From Saitoella complicata NRRL Y-17804 (Eukaryota; Ascomycota; Saitoellomycetes; Saitoellales; Saitoellaceae), in contig NW_017566992.1 of assembly GCF_001661265.1 (NCBI RefSeq), positions 465,514 through 529,513 on the forward strand: a DNA stretch of 64,000 nt. Direction: 5' to 3'. A model generated the notes under the pieces. It saw only the letters and a program-made list of their open reading frames with translations, made no database searches and was not told where the DNA came from. This document shows positions 5,894-49,605 of the stretch, piece by piece; position 1 is the stretch's first letter, and each line of letters starts with the position of its first letter. The position numbers and the translations under genes are program-made.

Positions 5894-8381
5894 TCACCTG
5901 TCCTCACACATCCCCACCCCCAACCTCAAACTCGGAATCGCATTCTCCTCTTTATCCTCCAACACCGCCAACCACGTACTGGCATACATGTTCGTACGAT
6001 CGATACACCGTCCTTTACTCCTCACCTCGACCGGACGACACCTGAACCCGGCACGTTCGTATTCTTCGACATACCACGGCTGCATAGCCGCAGAGCGGAA
6101 AAGAACTTCACCCCCGACTTTCATGGCACGGCGGAGCACCGACAACTCACCACGAATCTCAGCACGATCACCTCCCTCTTCGAACCAATCCGCATGATCC
6201 ATCAACACCGCCTTCGTCACTGTTCCGGGGGTGAGAGTACGGAGAACATCACCGATATAATCCGTATGCAAACGGAACATATCCAACGCACCCGGCTGAC
6301 CCAACTTCTCATGACTCTCCTCATCAAGATAATGAGGATGACACTCCTTCGTAAACCTCCCCGTCAAACACAACAAATAAAAGTAATTGTCATCCCTCAA
6401 CAACGTACTCTCAATGACTGGATCGAACGTGTTGGCGACATACTCAAACATCGTCTGTTCCGCCAAAATCATCTTCCACTGATTGATCGGCACGCCGAGC
6501 GCTTTCCAGAGGAAGACCGGGTTAGCGTATAAGACCTTGTTGACCCACCCACTCAACAACACGGGCCTAATTCTCTCCTTCCAAACCCTTCTCTGCTCCT
6601 CCAACGTCTTCGTCTGACACATCTCCCTCACCGCACCCCCCAACCCAAAGATCCGGAGCAACCACCTCGCAGCCTTGATAGCCACACCAGAATGCCCCGA
6701 ATCATACAACCCCCCGACCTTCGCGAAACTCCCCGCATTCCTAACCCAAAACTCAAGCGCGGGAGCACTGAGATGCGGCGCCAACCTCTTCAACAACAAC
6801 CCCCTAAAATCCACATGCCACCCCTCCCCAAACAACCTCCAAAACTCCTCATACCCACACACCGTAAACGCCGCCAACTTGAGTTCAACGAGATGATTCT
6901 GACAAGGATTCAAATCAACACAATGAATCCTCTTCGGTTTCTTCGCGCCGAGGGCGTAGGCGAGGGCGTTGTCGCCTCCGGAGGTGATACAGACAATCAC
7001 GTCATCCTCCCTGACCTTGAGGACGTTTAAATCCTCCCTCGGATCCTCCCACGTAAACGCATAGATATACGTATCGAACTGGGTATGTTTCTCCTTTTCC
7101 TGCTCATACGGAATCCGCCACAAATGACTCTGATAATAAAAACTCGGCAACGGCAACCCAGCCGCCAGATTCACGATCGCGGCATCGTAGGCTTTGGTGT
7201 GAACGATCGCCGTGGTTGAGGATGCATCGTGCTCCACCAAACCCTTGGGGCGGAGATACGGCGATTCAGTAGCGATCTCGTCGACGCGCCCGATGTTGCC
7301 GTATCCCCTCTCTCTCTTACACCCAACCCAAACCCAATACGGGATCCCTCCCAAGCCCCTATTCCTCCCATTCAAAACCTTCACGGTCCCGAATACGTGC
7401 TCCAGGTACGCTCTACGTCCGGGCTCGAGATGGACGTTGTCCGCTTCAAACCATAATCGCCAAAACGTACGTGCGAGCCAGGAGACGTGGTGACCGGGGG
7501 TGGAGCGGGAGGGGTGGGTGTAGGGTAAGGAGGAGGAGGTCCCGGTGTAGAAATCCGCGAGAGCGATGAGTCCGTCTGCGCTCAACAGTCGATTCGCTTT
7601 CTCGATCACGCTTAGGTATGGCGGGATCATACTCAATGAATAGGAGAAGGTGATCAACTCCACGCTCCCATCTGGAACGGACGTATCGGTCCATTGTGCC
7701 GCATCAGCGCATACGACCTCGACGTTCGTGAATCCGAGGGAATCGAAGCGTTCACGCGCGATGGCGCAGAGGGAAGGGGAAAAGTCGACCAAGTAGATCC
7801 TGTCGAAGAATTGGGTGATGGGCATCGAGAGGTGTTTGGACATCTGCTCGATATTCCAGCCCGTACCGCCGCCAACCTACACCTCATCTCATTAGCATGT
7901 CACCCACACCAAACTGCCGACAGGGAACAAAACTCACATCAATCCAAACCTTCTTCTCGGAACTGTGGGAAGCAACACGCTTCGCCAAAACCTCACCACT
8001 AACCAATCTCAACATCGTCTCGCGTCCCCTCAACAACCGTCCCCTCGTCAAATCATAAACATCCGCCTGTCCCTTGTAGAAACCCTCCAAACTCGCTTGT
8101 TGCCCCATCATCACGCCACCCTCGACATCCTTGGCATGAGGCTTGATGAAGCAGTTGTACGCGAATTTCATGTATGGTTTCGTTGCGGGGATGGAGCAGA
8201 GCACAATGAAAACCAGGAGGGCAAGGGGGAGGATGAGCGGGATGCGGATTGCGAGGGAACCGGATTCGGTGGCCATGGGGAGGGGAATTGCGAAGCCGTT
8301 GTTGTTGAAGGGTTTTGTGATTGCGTGTTTGAATGCGAGGAGCTTCGGGAGGGGAAGCATCCCCTTCATGATATCAGTCAT
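5894..8381 (-). CDS. BTA1: betaine lipid synthase (DGTS synthase)
   Basis: Makes the phosphorus-free membrane lipid diacylglyceryl-trimethylhomoserine from diacylglycerol and S-adenosylmethionine. Exons (minus strand) 8381-7938 and 7876-5894, intron 7877-7937 (GTGAGT...TAG), 808 aa. A membrane segment lies at about residues 40-65. Next comes the BtaB-like N-methyltransferase, with SAM motif DVGGGTGWN spanning the splice junction exactly, then the BtaA-like DUF3419 aminocarboxypropyl transferase from about residue 370 (DDVIVCITSGGDNALAY, CVDLNPCQNHL). This methyltransferase-first order is the known fungal one; algal BTA1 is reversed. The ATG at 8381 was chosen because the frame upstream has no ATG. 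In fungi BTA1 is typically induced by phosphate starvation (established); I did not identify a PHO4-type site. Confidence 0.93.
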
Positions 8382-26611: not shown

Positions 26612-27448
26612 ACCGACTCGAGCAAACTGTATCGGAGCGGCGTTCGAACGTTCAAGCTGGTTGTCCGAGCAAGTGGTTCAGACGCCGGTCATGGTGAGTT
26701 TCGCATTTTCTGCAGTCACATGACTTAGACCAAGAATGGATGGGAGGGGGGAGTAATGTAGAGTGTGTCGCACTCCTTTATATCAACTATATATAAATAT
26801 GGGACTTCCTCCCATCCATAATCATCAGCAAGATACTACTCTTATTCTGGTATGACACTCGCTACACATGTCGCGATACAGCTTGACGGTGAACATTCCC
26901 GTCGATGTACTAGTAATAGATCACCTCGGCTACCATACGTCCACCTGACGTTACGTTACCGATCCCATCACGCGGCCGGACGGGGCTCCACTCAGCAGCA
27001 CCATTTCCCCGCACGGCCGCGACCGGGGCTTCACGCGCGGAGTCCGGGTTAATCGGCTAAATCGGACTTGGACATGTGCCGTCCCTTTGATCTGACGACA
27101 AATTCGAACGGAACGGCTTGACAGGTCAATCCTACTTCGTCCATGAAACGTCTCTCCTTGCTCCACCACCGCGATCGCTTCGATGCGCTCTCGCCTGTGT
27201 GAGCTTACCCGCTTGAACCGCCGCACTCCCCGCACAAGGTCCGATGACGGACACGGAGAACGAAGCAGGCCGGCCACCTATGCATCGTACATACGTCGGC
27301 AGCCACGCGCCCCCCGCTGCTTCCCCAGACCGCTCTACGTTGCCTTCCCCGTCGCCCCGCCATTTAGCCTCGGCCAGTCCTTCCTCCCTATAAAGTAGCT
27401 GATCCGTCGGCTGTCCCTTCGTCGCTCAACGCGATTGATCTGCACACC
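26612..27448. other. promoter region of the MFS gene, with an isolated TATA box
   Basis: 837 bp. An excellent TATA element (ATATATAAATAT, 26789-26800) lies 650 bp before the next ATG and directly precedes a short ORF at 26852 (66 codons, unrecognised). It may serve a distant start of the MFS transcript or belong to a lost gene. Nothing else seen. Confidence 0.45.
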
Positions 27449-28984
27449 ATGTCAGACTTCGACAAACATCAAATCACCCACCTCGAAAACCTCGACCACG
27501 AGAAAGGCACCTACGCCACCTCCCCCGACCGCGACTCCTCCTCCCTCAAAGACCATGGCCACTTCGAACTCCCCATCGACCCTGCCCTCGCCGACCCGGC
27601 CGCAGACCGCGCCCTCCTCCGCAAAATCGATTTCCGCCTCATCCCCTACCTCTCCTTCCTCTACCTCCTCTCCTTCCTCGACCGCGCAAACATCGGAAAC
27701 GCGAAAATCGAAGGTCTGGATAAAGACCTCAACATGACGGACCAACAATACCTCTGGACACTCACCGCGTTCTTTTTCCCATACGCACTGTTCGAGGTCC
27801 CGTCCAATATCCTCTTGAAGCGGTTGAGACCGAGTATCTGGATCCCCGGAATTATGCTGTGTTGGGGAACGTGCATGACACTCATGGGCCTCGTCGAAAA
27901 CTTCTCCGGACTCCTCGCTGCTCGATTCTTCCTCGGTGTAGCCGAAGCTGGTCTCTTCCCCGGCGTAACATTCTACCTCTCCTGCTGGTACAAACGCCGT
28001 GAGTACGGCCTCCGCGCCGCAATCTTCTTCTCCGCCGCTACCGTCTCCGGCGCATTCGGCGGCCTTCTCGCAGCCGCCATCGCAAAAATGGACGGAATCG
28101 GGAATAAACCAGGATGGGCATGGATCTTCATCCTCGAAGGTCTCTTGACCGTGGTCGCGGGTGTCGCTTCATTCTGGATCGTACCCGATTTCCCAGACAC
28201 CGCAAAATTCCTCTCTCCAACCGAACGCACAATGACAATCGCCCGTCTCCAAGCCGACGCGCAATACTCCGCCGGCGTCCACGAACCATTCCGAATGTCC
28301 CGCCTCTGGGACGCACTACGCGATTGGAAAACATGGATGGCGATGGTGATTTACATGGGTATCGACGGACCCTTGTACGCATTCTCACTCTTCCTCCCCT
28401 CCATCATCAAAGAACTCGGATACACAAATACCCGCGCACAACTCCTCTCCGTACCCCCATACGTCGTCGCATGCGTCGTTACCGTCGGTGTCGGGTTCGC
28501 AGCGGACCGTACCCAACGTCGCGGAATCTACAACATCGTCTGTGTATCCTTAGCCATTATCGGCTACATCATGAACATCGTCCCTTCCTCGACAGCCAAC
28601 GTCCGCTACGCAGGCGTCTTCCTCGCCGCCGCCGGTGTATATCCCTGCATCTCCAACACCGTCTCCTGGATCTCCAACAACACCGAAGGCTCCTACAAAC
28701 GCGGCATCGTCATGGCCCTCGCCATATCCTGGGGTAACCTCAACGGGGTCGTTTCCTCAAATATCTATCGCGCGCGGGATGCGCCACATTATGAGCTTGG
28801 ACATGGGGTTGTGTTGGGGTATTTGGTTTGTGCGTTGGTTGGGAGTGTGGTGTTGAGTTGGATGTTGGGAAGGGAGAATGGGAGGAGGGAGGAGAGGGTT
28901 AGGAATGGGGAGAGGCAGGTTGGGGGGGCGGTTGAGAGGGCGGAGAGGGGGGATAAGGATTTGATGTTCCGGTATGTTGTGTGA
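27449..28984 (+). CDS. MFS transporter, anion:cation symporter (Dal5/Tna1-like) family
   Basis: Plasma-membrane proton symporter for an organic anion; relatives carry allantoate, nicotinate, biotin or pantothenate. Single exon, 511 aa. An acidic cytosolic N-terminus of 70 residues precedes DFRLIPYLSFLYLLSFLDRANIGNAKIEGL, the usual ACS-family TM1 and loop (R-x-N-[IV]-G-x-A). Then come VPSNILLKRLRPS, the TM4-5 region ARFFLGVAEAGLFPG, and a central loop with DALRDWKTW typical of the family. Twelve helices can be counted. The C-terminus is long, Arg/Glu-rich and hydrophilic. Substrate cannot be read from sequence, and neighbouring genes give no pathway clue. Confidence 0.92.
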   Translation: MSDFDKHQITHLENLDHEKGTYATSPDRDSSSLKDHGHFELPIDPALADPAADRALLRKIDFRLIPYLSFLYLLSFLDRANIGNAKIEGLDKDLNMTDQQYLWTLTAFFFPYALFEVPSNILLKRLRPSIWIPGIMLCWGTCMTLMGLVENFSGLLAARFFLGVAEAGLFPGVTFYLSCWYKRREYGLRAAIFFSAATVSGAFGGLLAAAIAKMDGIGNKPGWAWIFILEGLLTVVAGVASFWIVPDFPDTAKFLSPTERTMTIARLQADAQYSAGVHEPFRMSRLWDALRDWKTWMAMVIYMGIDGPLYAFSLFLPSIIKELGYTNTRAQLLSVPPYVVACVVTVGVGFAADRTQRRGIYNIVCVSLAIIGYIMNIVPSSTANVRYAGVFLAAAGVYPCISNTVSWISNNTEGSYKRGIVMALAISWGNLNGVVSSNIYRARDAPHYELGHGVVLGYLVCALVGSVVLSWMLGRENGRREERVRNGERQVGGAVERAERGDKDLMFRYVV

Positions 28985-29593: not shown

Positions 29594-30390
29594 CTAACCG
29601 CCACGTCTTCGTTTGTGGCGAGCCCGGGGTCCCTCGAGCTCATCGCTGTCGGACTCGGCATTTTGTGCAGCGGGTGGTGCTTCTGGTGCTTGCTCTTCCG
29701 CCTGCTGGGCAATGTCGGGGTGAGGAGCATTACCTGCTTGCTGGTTTTGGGCTTCCGGTGTCCCTTGATCTTCGGGTACTTCCATGCCCGGCTGTCGCTG
29801 CGTCAGTGCGTCTTGCGAGTAAAACACCGGTACCCAAGCAATGGGGGCCGGTTCAGTAATGGGACCGGGTGGTCCCCACAATGGCTTCGACGCGGGCGCA
29901 AGATTAGGTATGGTAGGGTACGAAGTTACAGCTGCCCTGGGGCGGCGCTCCTTCATGTCGAGCATCATGGGGCTAGTGCCGTATAACGTAAAATCATGAA
30001 CTTCCGCCCCGAAGTCAGAATTCCGGAAACAGAGAGAAGAAGTATGCCTGAATACCGTCACCTCCATCTGACCAAGAACGATCAGTTCTGAGCTCAAGAT
30101 ATCATAGGAAGGCATACATTGAACGGGTTAGGAGACAGACGCCATCGCACAAAGCGCAGCATCTCCTTCTCACGCCTTACCAGGGGACGAATGTCGCTCA
30201 ACTTTATGAGATATCCCTTCGTTTCGTTCAATTCATAGATGTAAGCGCCTTTGAGATCTTCGAGTGATTTCCAGGATTCACCAGCACAAATAAATGCGAA
30301 AAAGCTCAACGACATCTCCGTCCAACCTCTGCCCGCGGCCGGGTCGAGATTCGAAAGCAACCAAGTCGTTGGCGGTTGCAAATCCGCCAT
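29594..30390 (-). CDS. unknown family 1, member A (apparently intact)
   Basis: Not recognised. Exons 30390-30118 (91 codons) and 30067-29594, intron 30068-30117 (50 nt, GTATGC...GTCAG), 248 aa. The first exon has W, EMSLSFFAFICA, W, LEDL, YL, REKEMLRFVRWRLSP. The second begins MEVTVFRHTSSLCFRN, then LDMKERRP, then a Pro/Gln/Glu-rich stretch and a tail of SDSDE followed by RARHKRRRGG, like a nuclear-localisation sequence. Two relatives lie upstream on the same strand at 31.1-31.75 and 32.4-33.1 kb. A third exon downstream is possible because GTTAGT sits at the stop. There is no signal peptide, membrane segment or known motif; an acidic-basic disordered tail after a compact N-domain suggests a nuclear protein (inference). 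Confidence 0.55.
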
Positions 30391-30594
30391 TGTACCTCAG
30401 GCTCTTTTTTCGGATCGTTTTACTTCTCGTTTACTTCTCTTGTCGGACCTTGATCGGACACGTCACTCAAACAGGATTCTTCCCATGTACCGCATGGGCC
30501 TGCTGGGATTTGAGTCGGGGTTGTCAGCTATCTCTGGACAAACTCATGGATTTCACGGGTATCATCTGGTATGTTACATAAAACCAGGCACCTG

Positions 30595-30707
30595 GGGTTT
30601 GTTATAGTGGTTAGGTTGTGGGCATGTTTTAGCCGGTCGCGAGAAATCGCCTCCACGTCTTGACGGATGTAATCTCTGGATCGAACCCCAGTGGCCCTGT
30701 TTCTTTT
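30595..30707 (+). ncRNA. tRNA-like pol III element 1
   Basis: Box-A-like TATAGTGGTTAGG (30603-30615) and box-B-like GGATCGAACC (30678-30687), followed by a T-rich stretch TTTCTTTT. The boxes are about 62 bp apart, longer than in most tRNAs, and the ends do not pair as an acceptor stem. It is therefore not a working tRNA but probably a tRNA-derived SINE or a relic. Confidence 0.35.
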
Positions 30708-30739
30708 CGTCTTTATGCGGGGATAAAGCCTCTGCGTTA

Positions 30740-30811
30740 ACGCGCTCTCGTCATACCGCCCAGACGAGTCGCTGGATCGAATCCCCCGTGGCTGCTGTTA
30801 TTATTTTCTTT
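30740..30811 (+). ncRNA. tRNA-like pol III element 2 (T-arm half)
   Basis: GCTGGATCGAATCCCCCGTGGC at about 30771-30792 gives a box B and T-arm like that of element 1, followed by TTATTATTTTCTTTT, a pol III-type terminator. I find no convincing box A. Probably a truncated copy. Confidence 0.3.
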
Positions 30812-31102
30812 TAAGATTTCAGGCCTAAAGATAGGCAATGAACCCATTCAGCTACAATTGTGAATTTTACCGCCATACGCTCTCGACATACCCATAAACA
30901 ACGTATGAATGCAATTCACTTATTACAACTCCCACCCCCCTTACGTGCTCTCATATACGATTTGTATCGCTCGAATCTCGCTTACACTCTCATATCTTCA
31001 CTATCGTTCAACCATCCTTGTTCTCAACCTGATCATAGCTCGGTACCGATACCCTAAACGGAAGCGTTGGATCTCAGATGTGTCCTCAAATGCGATGGTG
31101 CC

Positions 31103-31752
31103 TCATTGTTGCCCATTAGATCCATTTGGCGGGAATGCTTGTGAAACAGGCTGCTCCTGGGGTTCTTGCGGTTGTTCAACTTGGGTAGCCTGTGCAATCT
31201 GTTCTGGGTGTTGAGCGTGCGCGGCGGCCTGTTTGGGCACCCAGGTGTTGAAATACTGTTCAGGCTGGAGCGTGGCCGTTATATAGGATCATCAGGAGAA
31301 CTCTCTGCGTTTAACAAACCCTGCTGCTGGTTCGTTCCCGCAACAGCTGCCTCGCTCTCGATGTATCCGTTCAGCTGTGCGAAGTTACGGAAGTCGGCGG
31401 CAACACCCGGGTGACGCTCGGCGAGGATCTCAACGACGCGAGCACCCTCGTTGACCTGATATATCTCGCGCTGAGTATCAACAGTAAGTCTTAACCTTAT
31501 AGACGTACAAGGTGGAGATGACACTACCGTGGTGACAAACGATTCGACACAGGATCTAGCATATCCCTTTCAACGGGACGCAGTTCACGCATCGTCGCAA
31601 GTTCTGTCAAGTAATCCTTCGTGGTATGCAACTCCCCCGTGTATGCCACGAGCCATTCAGCAAACCTTGCCCACTTATGACCCAAACAGAGTCACGCATA
31701 TAATATCAGCGACATACGCTGCCACATCCTTGGATTGTCGAGCAATCTGTGT
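31103..31752 (-). pseudogene. unknown family 1, member C (broken)
   Basis: Gap-free similarity to the first exon of members A and B: LLDNPRMWQRMSL, then GHKWARFAEWLVAYTGELHTT and KDYLTELATMREL, ERDMLDPVSNRLSP. The reading frame is interrupted inside the conserved MSL..FAF segment and the start codon region has drifted. Beyond the likely intron comes a well-formed stretch (REIYQVNEGARVVEILAERH...ADFRNFAQLNGYIESEAA). A 64-nt intron-like gap (GTTTGT...AACAG) then leads to a Gln/Pro-rich tail ending SNGQQ, as in the siblings. The order of parts matches A and B, so this is a decayed tandem copy. Confidence 0.5.
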
Positions 31753-32389
31753 TTTCCTTGGGCTTTGTTTCGATCGACTTCTTGGGCTTGCAATAGAAGC
31801 GTTCATACATGAGCGGTGTACGTGACAGGTATCGCGGCCGTGGGCCCCTGTCGCGGAAGGCGCATGTCCTCAAGTGAGGTGGAGTGGACCCAAATATTGA
31901 TCAGCTAACTCTCCTGGGGTTACGGGTCTCACTTGCAGTTGTGGCGGCTGTACGTTTGTGTTCCTTTGGGGTTCTACAACTCCCACGCGGGAGGTCGCTT
32001 TGTGCTATCATATACACTTCGACAAACTCATATTCCGCGCATACTTTCTTGTTTTTCAGTATCGCACAGCCGTCGTCGATCTTCCATCGTTATCCACTAA
32101 TCACTTGAAGCGTATCACTCCACCTGAACATACGCGTACTGGACTTTGAGATCTTGCAGGAGTTTTCGCCCATACCTGTCCTAACAATGCGGATCCTCCT
32201 CACCCTAAACGAGCGGGATACGAAGTCATTCGTGCGTTTCGAGAGGTCCGCCTCAGCGAACGTTAACCCTGATCATTGATCATACAAGTCTTTTCGAAGT
32301 TTCTGTAGATATACTGCTGCTCGTTGTGCCGATAATTGTATACTTGTACCTTAATCTGAGTTGTGCTGTCTTAATCGCCGGCTCAAAAG
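31753..32389. other. intergenic between family-1 members C and B
   Basis: About 640 bp of lower GC than the flanks. Only short unrecognised ORFs; nothing assigned. Confidence 0.5.
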
Positions 32390-33140
32390 TCAACCGCGTA
32401 TGTGCCTTAGTATTGCACGCCAAGCTGACCCTGACAGACCAGGCCTTCGGCGAAGCCCTGAACCCTCGTCGTCAGAATTGTGGAGGTCAGCAGGGGCAGT
32501 TTGTTCAGCAGGTTGCGGGTGTTGTTGCTGTTGCTGCTGTTGCTGCTGTTGTTGCTGTTCGTGTGGTTGTTGTTGAGGTAGCGGCTGCGCCGCCTGCTGA
32601 CCGTTCACGCCTGTCGCCAGATGTAACCCCCAGTACGGCATCGATGTTTGAGATGTAGGCGGGACGGGAATTCTCTCCGCCCTCGGCAGCGGCGGTTGGG
32701 ACGTTTCGTCTATATCCATCTGACTGAGAATTCCATATTGGAAAACTGAAGGGTATCAGCACCAATGCCCTGAAAGCGTGCTGGGAGACTGATAACATGG
32801 TAGAACTGGAGTGCCTCATTCTGGAGAAATAATAAGCTTCAGTCCGGAGAGAGATACGGCACACACTGGCCTGAATAGAATAAGGCGAGAGACGCCTTGA
32901 AACGAACGACAACATGCTTGCTTCGACCCGTCCCAGCTCTCTTTGATTACCAAGTGCCGTCAGGTAAAGTTCGGTTGTTTCCAAGTCCCACACATAACAT
33001 CGGACAAGGTCGTCTACGCTAGTCCAAAACTGCCCGGACGCGCAAACGAAAGCGAACGATGGGAGTGACATGCCTTGCCACAACCTTTCGTCGTCCATAT
33101 GGCTGAGCATCCAGGTATCCGGACGAGGCGGTTGTGCCAT
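32390..33140 (-). pseudogene. unknown family 1, member B (probably damaged)
   Basis: The ATG at 33140 opens a first exon of about 92 codons, equal in length and pattern to member A: DTWML, WQGMSLPSFAFVCA, FWTSVDDL, YLTAL, QREL, MLSFVSRRLSP. A donor GTGTGC and acceptor TCTCCAG remove about 45 nt. The second exon reads NEALQFYHVISLPARFQGIGAD, aligned with MEVTVFRHTSSLCFRNSDFGAE of member A. After that point the similarity continues in a different frame (YGILSQMDIDE), leading to a poly-Gln run, HPQPAEQ and a SDDEGSG plus RRR tail. This indicates one frame break, unless an unusual splice is used. A 211-codon unspliced ORF exists but ends in Thr/Ala repeats and matches A less well. Confidence 0.45.
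32519..32559. repeat. CTG/CAG trinucleotide microsatellite
   Basis: About 13 consecutive triplets of TTG/CTG type. On the minus strand it encodes the poly-Gln run of family-1 member B; in another frame it encodes Thr/Ala. Confidence 0.9.
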
Positions 33141-33324
33141 TTCTCTGTATTTTTTATTCTGGAATTGGTGACCTTCCTGATTGCTGTCGTTGCGATCGCG
33201 ATCGCTCACACGACATGCGTTGTCAGGTACCTACCTGTCAGGTGGAGCGGGGAGGGAGATCAATGCCTGATCTGGCACGGTTTCCTGGTTTATTTATGTC
33301 GGTTTTACCATATATCTCAGTACA

Positions 33325-33447
33325 GGCGATGTGGTGTAGTGGTAGCGCTGCCGCCTTTGGCCTGTGGGGGGGACACCTCCTGCCGCCTCTGGCCTGTGGC
33401 AAAGTCACTGGGTCAATTCCCCCGTGCTTCACCTTTTATTTCCTTTT
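33325..33447 (+). ncRNA. tRNA-like pol III element 3 with internal duplication
   Basis: Box-A-like GTGTAGTGGTAGCGC (from about 33333) and box-B-like GGGTCAATTCCC (near 33410), followed by TTTTATTTCCTTTT. The 20-bp unit CTGCCGCCT[TC]TGGCCTGTGG occurs at 33348-33367 and 33380-33399; each copy can fold as GCCGC/GTGGC with a 9-nt loop where the anticodon arm would be. The ends do not pair as an acceptor stem, so this is a tRNA-derived element or relic, not a functional tRNA. Confidence 0.4.
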
Positions 33448-33643: not shown

Positions 33644-35107
33644 TCACACCTTCCCCAACACCCTCCACCCCGCCTCCTTCCCCAAAACCTCCCTCTGCTT
33701 CCATACTTTAACCCACCATAACACCACCGCCGCCAACACGAACGTCCCGCCCGCAAACCCAATCGCGCCCAAATACGAATCCGCCCCAATCTTCCCATCA
33801 TCTTTCATCCGCTGAACGAGTGCTAAGGCGATTGGTTCTGCGAATGTTGTGGGTAGGACGATGTTGATCCATTGCATCGAGAGTCCTGCGCCGAGGTTCG
33901 AGACACCGACGACTTCCGCGGTGATGGGGGTGCAGAGGACCCAGAATACTCCCGAGACGGCGCCGTGGAGGATACAGAAGAATATCATCACACCATATGA
34001 CCTGCCAAACATCCAGATGACTAAACATGTCAAGCCAGCGAAGAACGTCGCTCCGATGCCCATGTTGATGCGCCCCGTACGGTCCCCGTAGTATCCCGTC
34101 AGTGGTCGTCCAACCGCCATCGCCGCCGTTACGATTGCACTGAGGTGTGATGCTTGAGATTGTGTCATCCCCGTAGCCACAGCATACGACGAGATCGAGA
34201 ACAAAGCAACAATGTACCCCAACATCGACAAGAACCCCCATGCCAACACAGCGACATACCCAGTATTCCTCAACAACCCTAAATCCCACGGCCGCATCTT
34301 ATCCCCTACCAGCTTCGCCCGACTCCTCAACAACAGAATTGCAGTCCCAAGTACCACCCCAGCTACGATCGCTGATATGCGGAATGCCCACGGTAAAGAG
34401 ATTTGCTGAATCATCGCATTTGTCCCCAAACTAAACGCCATACCTCCAAACCCGCTCCCCGCAGCCATGATCCCCGACGCGAGCGCTCGTCGTGTCGAGA
34501 ACCACTGCCCCGGTAGCCCGATGGCGGGAACGAAGAGAAATCCCATACCCCAACCAAACATGACACCTTGCCCGAGGAAAAGCATCCACAACCGAGGTGG
34601 GGCGAAGGAACTCAGGATTAACCCACCGACCTCCAACACCAACCCTATCGTCATCACGACCTTGAAGTGCCATACGCCTGAGAGGTATGTAGCGAGTGGT
34701 GCGATTAGCATTGCTTGTGATACGGATAGTCCACCGACGAAAGCGAAGTCCATGGAGGAGGCGCCGGGGAAGTAGTCGTTTGCGAGGTAATGTGAGAGGT
34801 AGACTCCGAATGACGAGTTGATACCCCATGAACTCGCCGTAACGCCGAACGCTGCGGCGACTACGACCCACCCATATCCGCCGTTTGGTGGCACGTCTTG
34901 TACGGTTGCTTTGATTTCGGTAGATCCGGAGGCGGTGGTTGTCAGTACTGGATGCTGTACTTTCTCTGAACGCGTGTTGGGGAGGACGGGGGTATCCTCG
35001 TGCGCCGGCTGCGGCAACGGATCGAGCTCCAAATCTCGTAAATCTTTGTCGTTCATGCCCACTGACAGCGTCGAAGCTGATCCCGTATCGTGTTCATGCT
35101 TCGCCAT
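33644..35107 (-). CDS. MFS transporter, monocarboxylate-transporter (MCH/SLC16-like) family
   Basis: Single exon, 487 aa from an ATG. A hydrophilic N-terminus of about 70 residues is followed by PPNGGYGWVVVAAAF, the signature [DP]-G-G-[WY]-GW-V of the monocarboxylate porter family. Next come NSSFGVYLSHYL (TM1-2 loop) and GWGMGFLFVPAIGLPGQWFSTRRALASGI (TM4-5). A charged central loop follows, then MAVGRPLTGYYGDRTGRINMG (R-P-x-x-G-x-x-x-D-R, typical of TM8). Twelve helices can be counted. In fungi this family includes riboflavin (Mch5) and other carriers; not all carry monocarboxylates, so the substrate is open. The gene is divergent from Argonaute. Confidence 0.92.
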   Translation of the reverse strand: MAKHEHDTGSASTLSVGMNDKDLRDLELDPLPQPAHEDTPVLPNTRSEKVQHPVLTTTASGSTEIKATVQDVPPNGGYGWVVVAAAFGVTASSWGINSSFGVYLSHYLANDYFPGASSMDFAFVGGLSVSQAMLIAPLATYLSGVWHFKVVMTIGLVLEVGGLILSSFAPPRLWMLFLGQGVMFGWGMGFLFVPAIGLPGQWFSTRRALASGIMAAGSGFGGMAFSLGTNAMIQQISLPWAFRISAIVAGVVLGTAILLLRSRAKLVGDKMRPWDLGLLRNTGYVAVLAWGFLSMLGYIVALFSISSYAVATGMTQSQASHLSAIVTAAMAVGRPLTGYYGDRTGRINMGIGATFFAGLTCLVIWMFGRSYGVMIFFCILHGAVSGVFWVLCTPITAEVVGVSNLGAGLSMQWINIVLPTTFAEPIALALVQRMKDDGKIGADSYLGAIGFAGGTFVLAAVVLWWVKVWKQREVLGKEAGWRVLGKV

Positions 35108-35538
35108 CCTAATAATCAGAGGAGATGGAAGAGGTAGAGCTTGGGGACCCCAGATTTTCGCTACGAGGAAGAGCGGGGGACATCTAGTCCGGCGTTAAAG
35201 TTTCGAACCGCCGACTGCGCATCTCGGCACGGGCCTTCCGAGATGCTGGTTGCTATGGGGATGAGATGGACGAGCGGGACCATGCATCCGGATTGCTGAA
35301 AAATAAAGATGGAAGGGAGTTCGAGAGGGTGGAGGTTGTCGTTCGTGTTCGTAGCAGATTGCCTCTCCCTTCCCGTCGGCAGCGTCATGCACATCATACG
35401 ACATCCCCAACACGCAGCCGGGCACGGGCCGTTCTTCGACAATGGAGGAGAGCAAGGGTTGGAGAGACGGGCAGTGCCGTCACGCCCTCGTCGTCTCCCG
35501 TCCCACTCCACCGACCGTCCATCCATCTTCACGTCAAG
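35108..35538. promoter_or_regulatory. divergent promoter, MCT-type transporter / Argonaute
   Basis: 431 bp between two divergent ATGs. An ORF in frame with Argonaute runs back through this region but gives Arg/Ser-rich nonsense, so I place the Argonaute start at 35539. No specific site was assigned. Confidence 0.5.
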
Positions 35539-38470
35539 ATGCCAGCCCGCGGCGAAGCTCCCATCCAAGTAACCGGATTCTACCGCCGTCCCGGATTCAG
35601 CACAGCCGGAGCCGCGGCTCAAGTCAAGTTGAATCACTACAAGGTCACGAAGTTACCTACCGGGACGATTTATCAGTATGATGTACGTATTCCTCATTCG
35701 TCCTCCACTCCTCTGTACGCGTGTTCCTCTGGTGTTCGGTTGAGCTTTCTCGCTGCATCGCACACGGCATCAGAGTACGTGGACGTTCTACGAGGACGGA
35801 GAGGTCAATGCAATTCACGCTCGAACAAGCTCGCTAATGCTTCGCTTTGCCAGGTTACCATCGGCTCCGACGACGCCTCCCCCGCCGTCCGCCGTAAAGT
35901 CTGGTCGGCCCCCTCCGTCCAAGAAGAATTCGGCGAAAAAAAAGTCATCTTCGATGGTCGTAAGATCGCATACTCCCTCGGTCCCCTCCCCTTCGGTAAC
36001 GATTTCACCAAAGACGTCGACCTCTCCGCCGGCGCCGAAAAGGCGGGAGGAGACGCGAAGGGCAAGGATAGGAAAAACGTGTTCAAGGTCAGGGTCAAGT
36101 ACACCAACCAAATCAACCTCGAGGTTTTACAAAGGTTCGTGGAGAATAAGTGGGGGAAGGATGAGAGTGTGTTGCAGGCTATCAATTTGCTTGATAATCT
36201 TTTGCGTCAGACGCCTGCGCGATTGTTCAAATCCGTTGGCCGTAACTTCTTCCAAGGTGGTCGTGCGAGGCCTTTGGCGGGTGGTGTTGAGGCTTGGAAG
36301 GGGATTTTCCAGAGTGTGCGTCCCACGCTTGGGTGTTTGACCGTCAACGTCGATACCGCCACGACTGTCTTCTGGTCCGGCGGGATCACCCTCGTCGATT
36401 TGTCCGTCCTCATCCTTGGCCGTAGAGGCCCCCAGGATCTACAGAGGATGAGCGATAGGGATATGAAGTTGTTGAATCGGGAGTTAAAGGGCGTAGGGTT
36501 TTTCGTGAAGCATAGGGGTGAGAAGGCGGAGGGGATAAGCCAGAAAATCAAGCGTGTCCTCCCGACGAACTCGCAAACAACCAAATTCCAACTCGGTGCC
36601 GATCGCGATACCGGTGCCGGCGGGACAGAATCAACCCTCTCCGCCTACTTTCTCCAAAAATACAACAAACGCCTCGCACACCCAACCCTCCCAATTCTCG
36701 AAACAATGCGCAAAGAGAAAATCCCAATGGAGTTGTGCTTCACCACCCCCAGCCAAAAATACCTCCGCAAATTAAATGAGAGGCAGACATCCGACATGAT
36801 CAAAATCACGTGTACGCGTCCCAACGAACGCGGTTCCGAGATTAGGCAGAATGTACAGGATTTGGGGTGGGAGAGGGATGGGTATTTGAAGGAGTATGGG
36901 ATGGGGATTGCGGGGGAGATGATGGTTAGTGAGGCGAGGGTGTTGCCCGCGCCGAAGATCGTGTATGGGAAGGCGAGTCGGGAGGCGGTTGTCCAGCCTC
37001 GTGACGGGAAATGGAACCTCCAGGGAAAAAAGATGTTTGAGGCGAAGTTGACGAAGGGGTGGGGTGTCCTCGTGTTTGATTCGCCGAATCGGTTGCCGCA
37101 ACAGGCCGTGCAGAATTTTTGTCGGCAGTTTGTGACGGTGGCTGTTGATATGGGTCTCACCTTCGGCAACAAAACCCCGCCGATCGCGTACGCGAACCCA
37201 CAAGGCTCCATCCAACAGGAAATCACGAATATCTGGCGCGCGGCCGGGAATGCCGTCAACGCTCGCCCGGATATGTTGGTGTTTGTCGTTCCCTCTGCAG
37301 GGGCGGAGTTGTATGGTGAGATTAAACGGGTTTGTGATATTGAGTTGGGGGTGGCGAGTCAGGTTTTGCAGGGGAAACACGTCATGCAGGCGAAACCGCA
37401 GTATTGTGCGAATGTTGTGATGAAGTGGAATTGTAAGTTGGGTGGGGTTAATGTTGTGCTTGGGCCGGGAGGGTTGCCGCTTGATGCGAAGGAGCCGACG
37501 GTACGTTCTCTCCACCCCCGGAGACTATGTTTTTGGTGACAGTGACTAATGGGAACGTAGATCTTGCTGGGTGCGGATGTCTCGCATCCCTCTCCTGGGT
37601 CCTCCAAGCCGTCGTTTGCTACGGTTACCGGAAGCACAGATTTGCAGGCTACCAAGTACGCCGCTGTCTCCCGTACCCAGGCTCGTCGTCAGGAATTGGT
37701 CGGTGAGATGAAGGCAATGGTCACCTCCCTTCTCCGCTCATTTTATAAAAACACGAAGCAGAAGCCGAAGAGGGTCTTGTATTTCCGTGATGGTGTCAGT
37801 GAGGGGCAGTTCAAGCAGGTTATGGATACAGAGATTCAGGATATCATTGGTATATCATGGAATTATCTTCTGGCTAGCTGAAGCTAACTCCGCGGTATAG
37901 AGGCTTGCAATGGATTGGAAGCTGGGTATAGGCCCAAGATTACGGTTTGTATCGTGCAGAAGAGGCATCATACCCGTTTCTTCCCGAGCAGCCAGAATGC
38001 GACGGATAGGAACGGCAATGCCGTTCCCGGGACTTTGGTCGACAGGACCGTCACTCACCCGAGCGAATTTGATTTCTGTAAGATATAAGAGTGATATGTC
38101 TCTCGAATTGAGCTAACTCCGTGTCCTCACAGTCCTCGTCGCCCATACCGCTCTCCAAGGAACCGCCCGCCCGACTCACTACCACGTCATCCACGACGAA
38201 AACAAATTCTCTGTCAACCACTTCCAGACGTTGGTTTACAACATGTCCTACGTCTACGCTCGTTCCACTACCAGCGTGTCCCTCGTTCCCGTCGTTTACT
38301 ACGCCCATTTGGCGTCTGCTAGGGTTAGGTACCATGATACGTCCTCGGATTACAGCGAGACGGAGACGACGGTTAGTAGTGGGCATGGATCTGGAGAGAA
38401 GGAGGATGCGGAGGTGACGGCTTTGCCGCCTATTAAGGGTGATTTGGCGCAAGTTATGTACTTTATGTAA
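35539..38470 (+). CDS. Argonaute (RNA interference effector)
   Basis: Binds small RNAs and slices or silences complementary transcripts. Exons 35539-35682, 35854-37500, 37561-37849, 37901-38077 and 38133-38470, 864 aa. Introns are GTACGT-CAG, GTACGT-TAG, GTATAT-TAG and GTAAGA-CAG, with CTAAT/CTAAC branch sites. The N domain is followed by ArgoL1 (LLDNLLRQTPARLFKSVGRNFF), PAZ (about 215-330), ArgoL2 and the MID/PIWI domain. Catalytic residues are visible: Asp in LLGADVSHPSPG, Asp in RDGVSEGQF and His in ARPTHYHVIHDEN, so slicing is likely retained. The long G-rich N-terminus of some Argonautes is absent. Intron 1 is 171 nt, divisible by three and free of stops, so retention would add 57 residues. 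Confidence 0.96.
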
Positions 38471-48012: not shown

Positions 48013-49605
48013 CTACATCTGCATTCTTCTCCTGCTCGCTGGACCCCATTCTCCATCCCCATCCGCCTTCCTCTTCCCAGCAGATCCCGCACTCCCCATA
48101 TTGAACGCCTCCTCCTCCGTCATCCCAATCACCATCTCCTCCTCATCCTCATCCCCATCAGCAACAACCTCCGAGCGGACATCACCAGGATGAACCCCCC
48201 GCTCAACACACCTCTGCCACCTCTCCCCCGCTTCAGTGATATACTGCGACAATTTGTTCCACGTCTGGGTATTTGATCTCAAATCAAGCGCCTTCTCACG
48301 GATCCATTGGCGCATGGAATTGACTTCGCGGGAGAGTGCGTTGATCGTCTCTACGCTCACCGAACCTACTCCATGACCCTTCCCGGGAGCAGAGGCGCGG
48401 GGTGTCTTGATTTCTTTCATCTTGTCGATAAGAATCCCAGTCGCATAAAGTTCGATCGGCGAAAACCTCCTCGCGTGCGTAACCTCCGCCTTCTCCTTTT
48501 TACTCCCTTTCCCCGACCCCACAACCTGATTCGACCAGAACGTATATTGGTGTGTGAAGACATCGGGACTGTTCTCGATCATCTTGTCGAAGATACCAAA
48601 TACGGCGCGAGCGCGGGCCCGGAATTCGAGGGTTGGCTCCGGTGTGTCTTTGATGAATGACATAAGGCGGGAGGGGGTGTTTGTCCAGGGGGCGGGACGA
48701 AGGTCGGTTGGTTTTGTGCAGTGGAGGACGAAGAGGATGATTGCGAAAGCTTGGAAATCTCTTGCGCTCTTGTCTTCACAGACTATCACATCGACAGTTA
48801 GCATTCATCTACAATTACAACGTACTCCCGCAGCCCGCGCGACGAACGCGCACGGCGGGGGAACAGGGTGGAGAACTCACGGTCGTTGACACGAGTATAC
48901 TCCGCCTGCAACTCCTTAATGAAGCTCTTCCACTTCCCACTTACAGCCTGCAACTTCTCCGCGCTCGTCAACGGAATTCCCATCTGTACCCTCTGAAACA
49001 GATCCTCCTCCTGCTCAGCCTTCAAATCCTTATACTCAATACACAACAAACTCTGCTCCTTGAATTTTTGTCTCGCATTCTCTGGTAAGAGCTTGGCACC
49101 GCGTTCTCTGACGTTTTCAAGAGTGTAGAAGTATTTCGTCTCGTTGCGGCCGAGGTAGGGGATTTGACCGAGCATGAAGGCTTTGATGGAGGAGAGACGT
49201 TGTTTTCCGTCGACGACGGTGCGGGTGATGCGGGGCTTTGAGTTGTTTTGGTTGAGAATTCTCGAGAGGGAGAAGATGATCGGTGGGACGTAGAACTCAT
49301 GCAACATAGAATGAATCAACCCGGACATACGCAGTTTCGTCCATACGACATCTGTACAACTGTCAGCATTCATCCCCACACTCGCGGCTGACAGACGTAC
49401 CTCGCTGATATGGCGGATCAAGAATCAAATAAGGTCCTTGCATCATTTCGAATAGATCAATGGTCCTATATCTGATCGCACTTGGATGAGGCAGCGCACC
49501 CTTGAATAGGTCGAAGTCCTCATCCCCTTCAGATGGTGAATGGGAATATTCACCATCCTCGTAATCCTCTGTAGGTTCAGGTTTGATAATGGGTTGGCGG
49601 GGCAT
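48013..49605 (-). CDS. DUF262-domain protein
   Basis: Fungal relative of the GmrS/DndB-like DUF262 fold, which in bacteria senses or cleaves modified DNA using NTP; the fungal role is unknown. Exons 49605-49401, 49351-48881 and 48782-48013, introns 49352-49400 (GTACGT-CAG, 49 nt) and 48783-48880 (GTGAGT, branch GCTAAC, TAG), 481 aa. An acidic N-terminus of about 40 residues precedes LDPPYQRDVVW. Then the hallmark VVDGKQRLSSI (DGQQR-type motif) appears, followed by LENVRERGAKLLPEN and IPLTSAEKLQA. A helical second half follows, ending in an acidic DEDEEE stretch and basic KRK/RRR residues, a likely nuclear signal. Confidence 0.88.

Follow-up and report, generated by a model that had tools for sequence, protein, structure and literature searches.

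An apparently old tandem family of three related gene copies with a predicted helical domain in Saitoella complicata

Results

The locus and its neighbourhood

The window, a stretch of 64,000 nucleotides of Saitoella complicata NRRL Y-17804 (contig NW_017566992.1), contains three copies of one protein family, A, C and B, all on the minus strand. The cluster is flanked by two frames with MFS transporter domains (27368-28981, plus strand, and 33647-35194, minus strand). An Argonaute frame (35188-37536, plus strand) begins about 2 kb away from the start codon of this last copy; its best matches among the PDB sequences were entries named argonaute 10, 1, 4, 2 and 3. Further frames in the window are a chitin synthase-like frame, a frame with a GmrSD_N domain (48801-49424, minus strand, E 9.3e-12), the name of this domain being derived from a bacterial restriction endonuclease, and a frame with methyltransferase and DUF3419 domains (5897-7876, minus strand, E 1.5e-143), which presumably resembles betaine-lipid synthase.

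A tblastn search of the 64-kb window with seven query pieces (rows with E below 0.05) yielded no convincing fourth copy of the domain; for the exon-1 pieces, the sole additional row covered 36 residues at 12343-12236 (E 0.03). On alignment, no long block common to the regions upstream of A, B and C was seen, and repeats of at least 40 nt involving the cluster were not found within the window. Three tRNA-like units were observed on the plus strand. Those at 30600-30690 and 33318-33425 consist of boxes A and B with a T run after them and are located approximately 180-300 nt upstream of the start codons of A and B, the second of them containing copies of a 20-nt repeat at a spacing of 32 nt. In the middle unit (30767-30790), 380-400 nt upstream, just box B and a stretch rich in T were seen. 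These units near A and B resemble degenerate tRNAs or relics of SINEs; no tRNA genes were called by ARAGORN or Rfam, the tRNA-like units included.

Structure of the three copies

Copy A (30390-29594, minus strand) was modelled as a protein of 248 aa with one intron. Exon 1 (30118..30390) comprises 91 codons from an ATG start, reads MADLQ...NPFN and encodes the conserved helical domain with 47 % identity to B; its frame had the top coding score among the six frames. The intron (30068..30117) has a length of 50 nt, GT-AG borders (GTATGC...GGTCAG) and a CTRAY branch site at -18. It was picked among 14 one-intron models of at least 200 aa on donor, acceptor, branch site and position, and these signals support the predicted intron directly after the exon-1 domain. 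Exon 2 (29594..30067), an open frame of 157 codons plus stop, encodes a tail rich in P, A, Q and E (20 P, 18 A, 11 E and 11 Q among the last 118 residues) that ends ESDSDE...RARHKRRRGG, an acidic patch followed by a basic one. Judged by its sequence, A looks intact and would be a working copy.

Copy B (33140-32393, minus strand) combines an intact exon 1 with a Q/P-rich tail frame. Exon 1 (32871..33140) has an ATG start and 90 codons encoding the intact conserved domain, for which a five-helix model was obtained. The head of the second exon in the frame homologous to A (32713..32820) runs for 36 codons into a stop, the consequence of splicing B at the place where A is spliced. The unspliced exon-1 frame remains open for 211 codons. 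An inferred alternative intron of 121 nt (32746..32866; GTGTGT...CTTCAG, CTRAY at -14) would link exon 1 with the Q/P-rich tail frame (32393..32755), which ends NSDDEGSGLRRRPG..., giving a protein of 209 aa; the donor 32857 with the same acceptor 32746 results in a 212-aa model. In total, B allowed 19 one-intron models of at least 180 aa, and the existence of an open model by itself therefore says little. A CTRAY site at most 25 nt from the acceptor was present in 3 of these 19 models, all using the acceptor 32746 (donors 32857, 32866 and 32893). Several frames are simultaneously open at 32505-33230 (minus strand) over the glutamine-codon repeat of B, thus a gene predictor might call B a single-exon gene of 211 aa. 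With an intact exon 1, an open frame of 211 codons and a GT-AG option with branch site, B was not accepted as a clear pseudogene. The copy probably works, either with its splice acceptor shifted or as a gene without introns.

Copy C (about 31742-31106, minus strand) is a remnant. The N-terminus and the start codon are lost; the alignable part of exon 1 (31530..31742) has 71 codons with one in-frame stop and no usable start codon. A probable second-exon remnant (31282..31470) had the top codon score among the eight pieces scored and contains a 15-residue core common to A and B, recognized post hoc. A remnant of a Q-rich tail follows in another frame (31106..31285); it is open, and its similarity to the A tail was not significant (P 0.082). 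By eye, no in-frame pair of donor and acceptor was found at the homologous place in the sequence of C. The in-frame stop and the missing start codon mark C as a pseudogene. An earlier note on this DNA, made from the letters alone, had counted two damaged copies: this is confirmed for C, with its in-frame stop and lost start, but not for B, for which open models exist. The damage perceived in B may have been the stop after 36 codons on A-like splicing.

Homology among the copies

In BLASTP, exon 1 of A and B shared 41 of 88 residues (E 2e-22). The identities for A-C and B-C were 41.8 % over 67 and 44.4 % over 72 residues, so that protein identity across the pairs ranged from 42 to 47 %, with a DNA identity over exon 1 of 48-52 %. 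The real local scores were 174 (A-B), 120 (A-C) and 137 (B-C) versus maxima of 58, 52 and 56 in shuffled sequences; in none of the three pairs did any of 5000 shuffles reach the real score. The alignments and shuffles bear out the claim that the three minus-strand units are related. The exon-1 homology had been described as a shared, ungapped stretch of 90 residues; the homology stands, but the A-B alignment contains 3 gap positions and C contributes just 71 codons.

For the head of the second exon, A and B were identical in 9 of 27 residues, a score reached by 3 of 100000 shuffles. C was best placed in one and the same register relative to A and to B. Its joint score was reached by 580 of 20000 shuffles over all 27 residues, and by 2 of 20000 over the 15-residue core, which was picked after inspection. 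A second-exon motif in all three copies, as earlier proposed, is hence clear for A-B and only suggestive for C. The tails gave P values (500 shuffles each) of 0.01 for A-B, 0.082 for A-C and 0.572 for B-C, and their low complexity weakens even the A-B value. The acidic-then-basic ending occurs in A and B only; the Gln/Pro-rich tail with this ending, attributed before to the whole family, holds for these two copies but not for C.

Constraint, age and coding signal

The family was constrained at the protein level for much of its history. Mismatches at the three codon positions numbered 43/30/66 over 89 codons for A-B (P 3e-7), 30/23/49 over 71 for B-C (P 4e-5) and 32/31/46 over 71 for A-C (P 0.02). 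Nei-Gojobori dN was 0.60 for A-B, 0.51 for B-C and 0.70 for A-C; a dS value was obtained for A-C only (2.1). The changes unique to one copy were distributed over the codon positions (71 codons) as 14/14/14 in A, 12/6/17 in B and 11/12/10 in C. With its even distribution, A may be evolving fast or relaxed. In the codon score over six frames, the named frame was best in seven of eight pieces, the B tail being the exception. The scores were low: values no higher than that of A exon 2 occur in only 4.2 % of true coding pieces, the corresponding shares being 3.2 % for B exon 1 and 0.9 % for the B tail.

Third positions between A and B are near saturation (66 of 89 differ), thus the duplications look old and not freshly born. 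With this near-saturation and 48-52 % DNA identity over exon 1, a recent duplication was rejected. The rapid birth and decay of copies suggested by the earlier note is not supported in that form: with near-saturated third positions the copies look old, and clear decay is seen in C only.

Predicted structure of the exon-1 domain

Exon 1 of A, modelled alone, folded poorly (pLDDT 49.2). For exon 1 of B in a three-row alignment with A and the C piece, the best AlphaFold2 model reached a pLDDT of 85.5 and a pTM of 0.77; the other four models of this run had pLDDT values of 82.9, 61.8, 59.9 and 52.1. Helices in the best model span residues 10-13, 18-22, 26-33, 42-66 and 71-84. The exon-1 domain of about 85 residues is accordingly predicted as a compact five-helix bundle. 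With Foldseek, neither the PDB (best E 2.1 among the 50 listed of 78 matches with E up to 10) nor the viral structures of BFVD (best E 1.9 among the 50 listed of 116 matches) yielded a match reaching E 0.001. Among the 50 of 78 PDB matches listed, the GAT domain of GGA3 (1wr6_C) had the highest query TM-score, 0.51 both ways. This domain is likewise helical and has 90 residues, but the match was not significant (E 3.9, 14 % identity, rmsd 6.7).

Searches for known relatives

Pfam, searched up to E 10, matched neither whole A nor the exact exon 1 of A or B nor the C piece past the stop. Longer exon-1 pieces gave weak matches to two families only (E 0.086 and 0.2). NCBIfam had no match up to E 10 for exon 1 of A or B. 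In PHROGs two families appeared, each matching one member without significance (E 0.085 and 0.19). Among the PDB sequences B exon 1 alone gave one match (E 0.33, not significant), and the three-row exon-1 profile none up to E 10. The exon-1 domain was thus assigned to no named family in Pfam, NCBIfam or PHROGs. The B tail frame produced weak Pfam matches over its glutamine run, the best to TFIIA alpha/beta (PF03153, E 0.0043). This candidate was rejected: its 17.5 bits stand against a curated gathering cut-off of 36.2, and it was present in the B tail only, at residues 48-98 of the frame and not in the common domain.

No exon-1 relative was detected in viral contigs or prokaryote genomes, searched with a few short peptide patterns that reach only close relatives, and no relative of B exon 1, the only exon-1 piece searched there, in plasmids. 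These collections of viral, prokaryote and plasmid sequences have no bearing on the spread of the family in fungi. In the part of the literature reached by a search with general terms, no related paper was found. The view that the family is undescribed is supported as far as testable: for exon 1, the searches of Pfam, NCBIfam, PHROGs and the PDB sequences brought no significant match, and the best fold matches listed (PDB and viral) were not significant either.

Discussion

Proposed function

Twenty-six residues are invariant in A, B and C; 16 of them are hydrophobic or aromatic, with A and C counted in this class, and the charged ones are D16, R21, R68, E74 and R84. This share of hydrophobic and aromatic residues suggests that the exon-1 domain is a module for binding or self-association rather than an enzyme, and the invariant pattern would be better explained by a packing core and a surface for docking than by a catalytic site. 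The 19-residue Kyte-Doolittle mean reached maxima of 0.86 in whole A and 0.96 in B exon 1. The usual membrane threshold is not reached by any stretch of A or B exon 1, so hydropathy indicated neither a hydrophobic N-terminus nor a transmembrane stretch as expected of secreted or membrane proteins. Invariant residues, tail composition and the lack of a membrane-grade stretch together favour an intracellular adaptor or co-regulator.

The best explanation of the locus is an old, small tandem family encoding intracellular proteins of approximately 200-250 residues. The five-helix bundle of exon 1 would act as the binding or self-association module, and the Q/P/A-rich tail of A and B would be disordered, a low-complexity segment for interactions. 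The KRRR at the end of A may be a nuclear signal; together with the acidic patch it might direct the protein to the nucleus, as in co-regulators of transcription or RNA. A would be working, B probably working and C a pseudogene. We give this reading as a whole, an old tandem family with a binding domain and a disordered Q/P-rich tail and with its function inferred, a probability of roughly 0.45. Against it count the low codon scores, the even spread of the changes unique to A, the poor fold of A exon 1 alone, the range of the five models of the three-row run (pLDDT 52.1 to 85.5) and the missing in-frame splice pair of C. Introns keeping the frame are, moreover, easily found (14 models in A, 19 in B), and neither the fold searches nor those for relatives lend the proposed function support.

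Alternative explanations

The low codon scores, the unique changes of A spread evenly over the codon positions and the clearly broken C would also fit a cluster decaying as a whole, in which A and B, too, have lost their function and retain open frames only as remains of an old family. However, canonical splice signals accompany the 248-aa model of A, the frame of B is open unspliced or by the alternative intron, and A and B were under strong past constraint; we regard decay of all copies as unlikely. The family may instead belong to a known domain family from which it has diverged beyond recognition by sequence profiles. The profiles were built on three sequences only and small helical bundles are difficult to match, yet the exact exon pieces had no Pfam match at E up to 10, the longer pieces none better than 0.086 and 0.2, and the best Foldseek E values among the matches listed were 2.1 (PDB) and 1.9 (viral). 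This explanation is doubtful and still deserves some weight.

A helical domain followed by a low-complexity Q/P-rich tail resembles the layout of Gag proteins, and there are tRNA-like units upstream of both A and B. A domesticated or decayed protein of a mobile element, spread locally by duplication, is nevertheless quite improbable: the exon-1 pieces matched no Gag family in Pfam, no repeat of at least 40 nt in the window involves the cluster, and no viral fold matched with an E of 0.001 or less. Lowest in our estimate, and hardly to be expected, is a new fungal family of helical domains acting as nuclear co-regulators, possibly tied to the adjacent Argonaute, with copies diverging by shifts of the splice acceptor.

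Comparison with known systems

If the family has relatives in other fungi, it would establish a small, as yet unnamed helical domain for which a usable predicted model and a list of invariant residues are available, and it would be an example of old tandem paralogues of which one is dying and another perhaps has moved its splice acceptor. If there are no relatives, the cluster is one among many orphan gene clusters. The copies are homologous, arranged in tandem and were under protein constraint, as expected of a tandem orphan family. Lineage-specific tandem orphan families of fungi, as a general kind, share with the cluster the tandem copies, the high divergence, one pseudogene, a low-complexity tail and the lack of a named domain in the libraries searched. 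Unlike in such families, the present copies look old and not recent. Altogether, this appears to be an orphan gene family of an ordinary sort, albeit one without a name.
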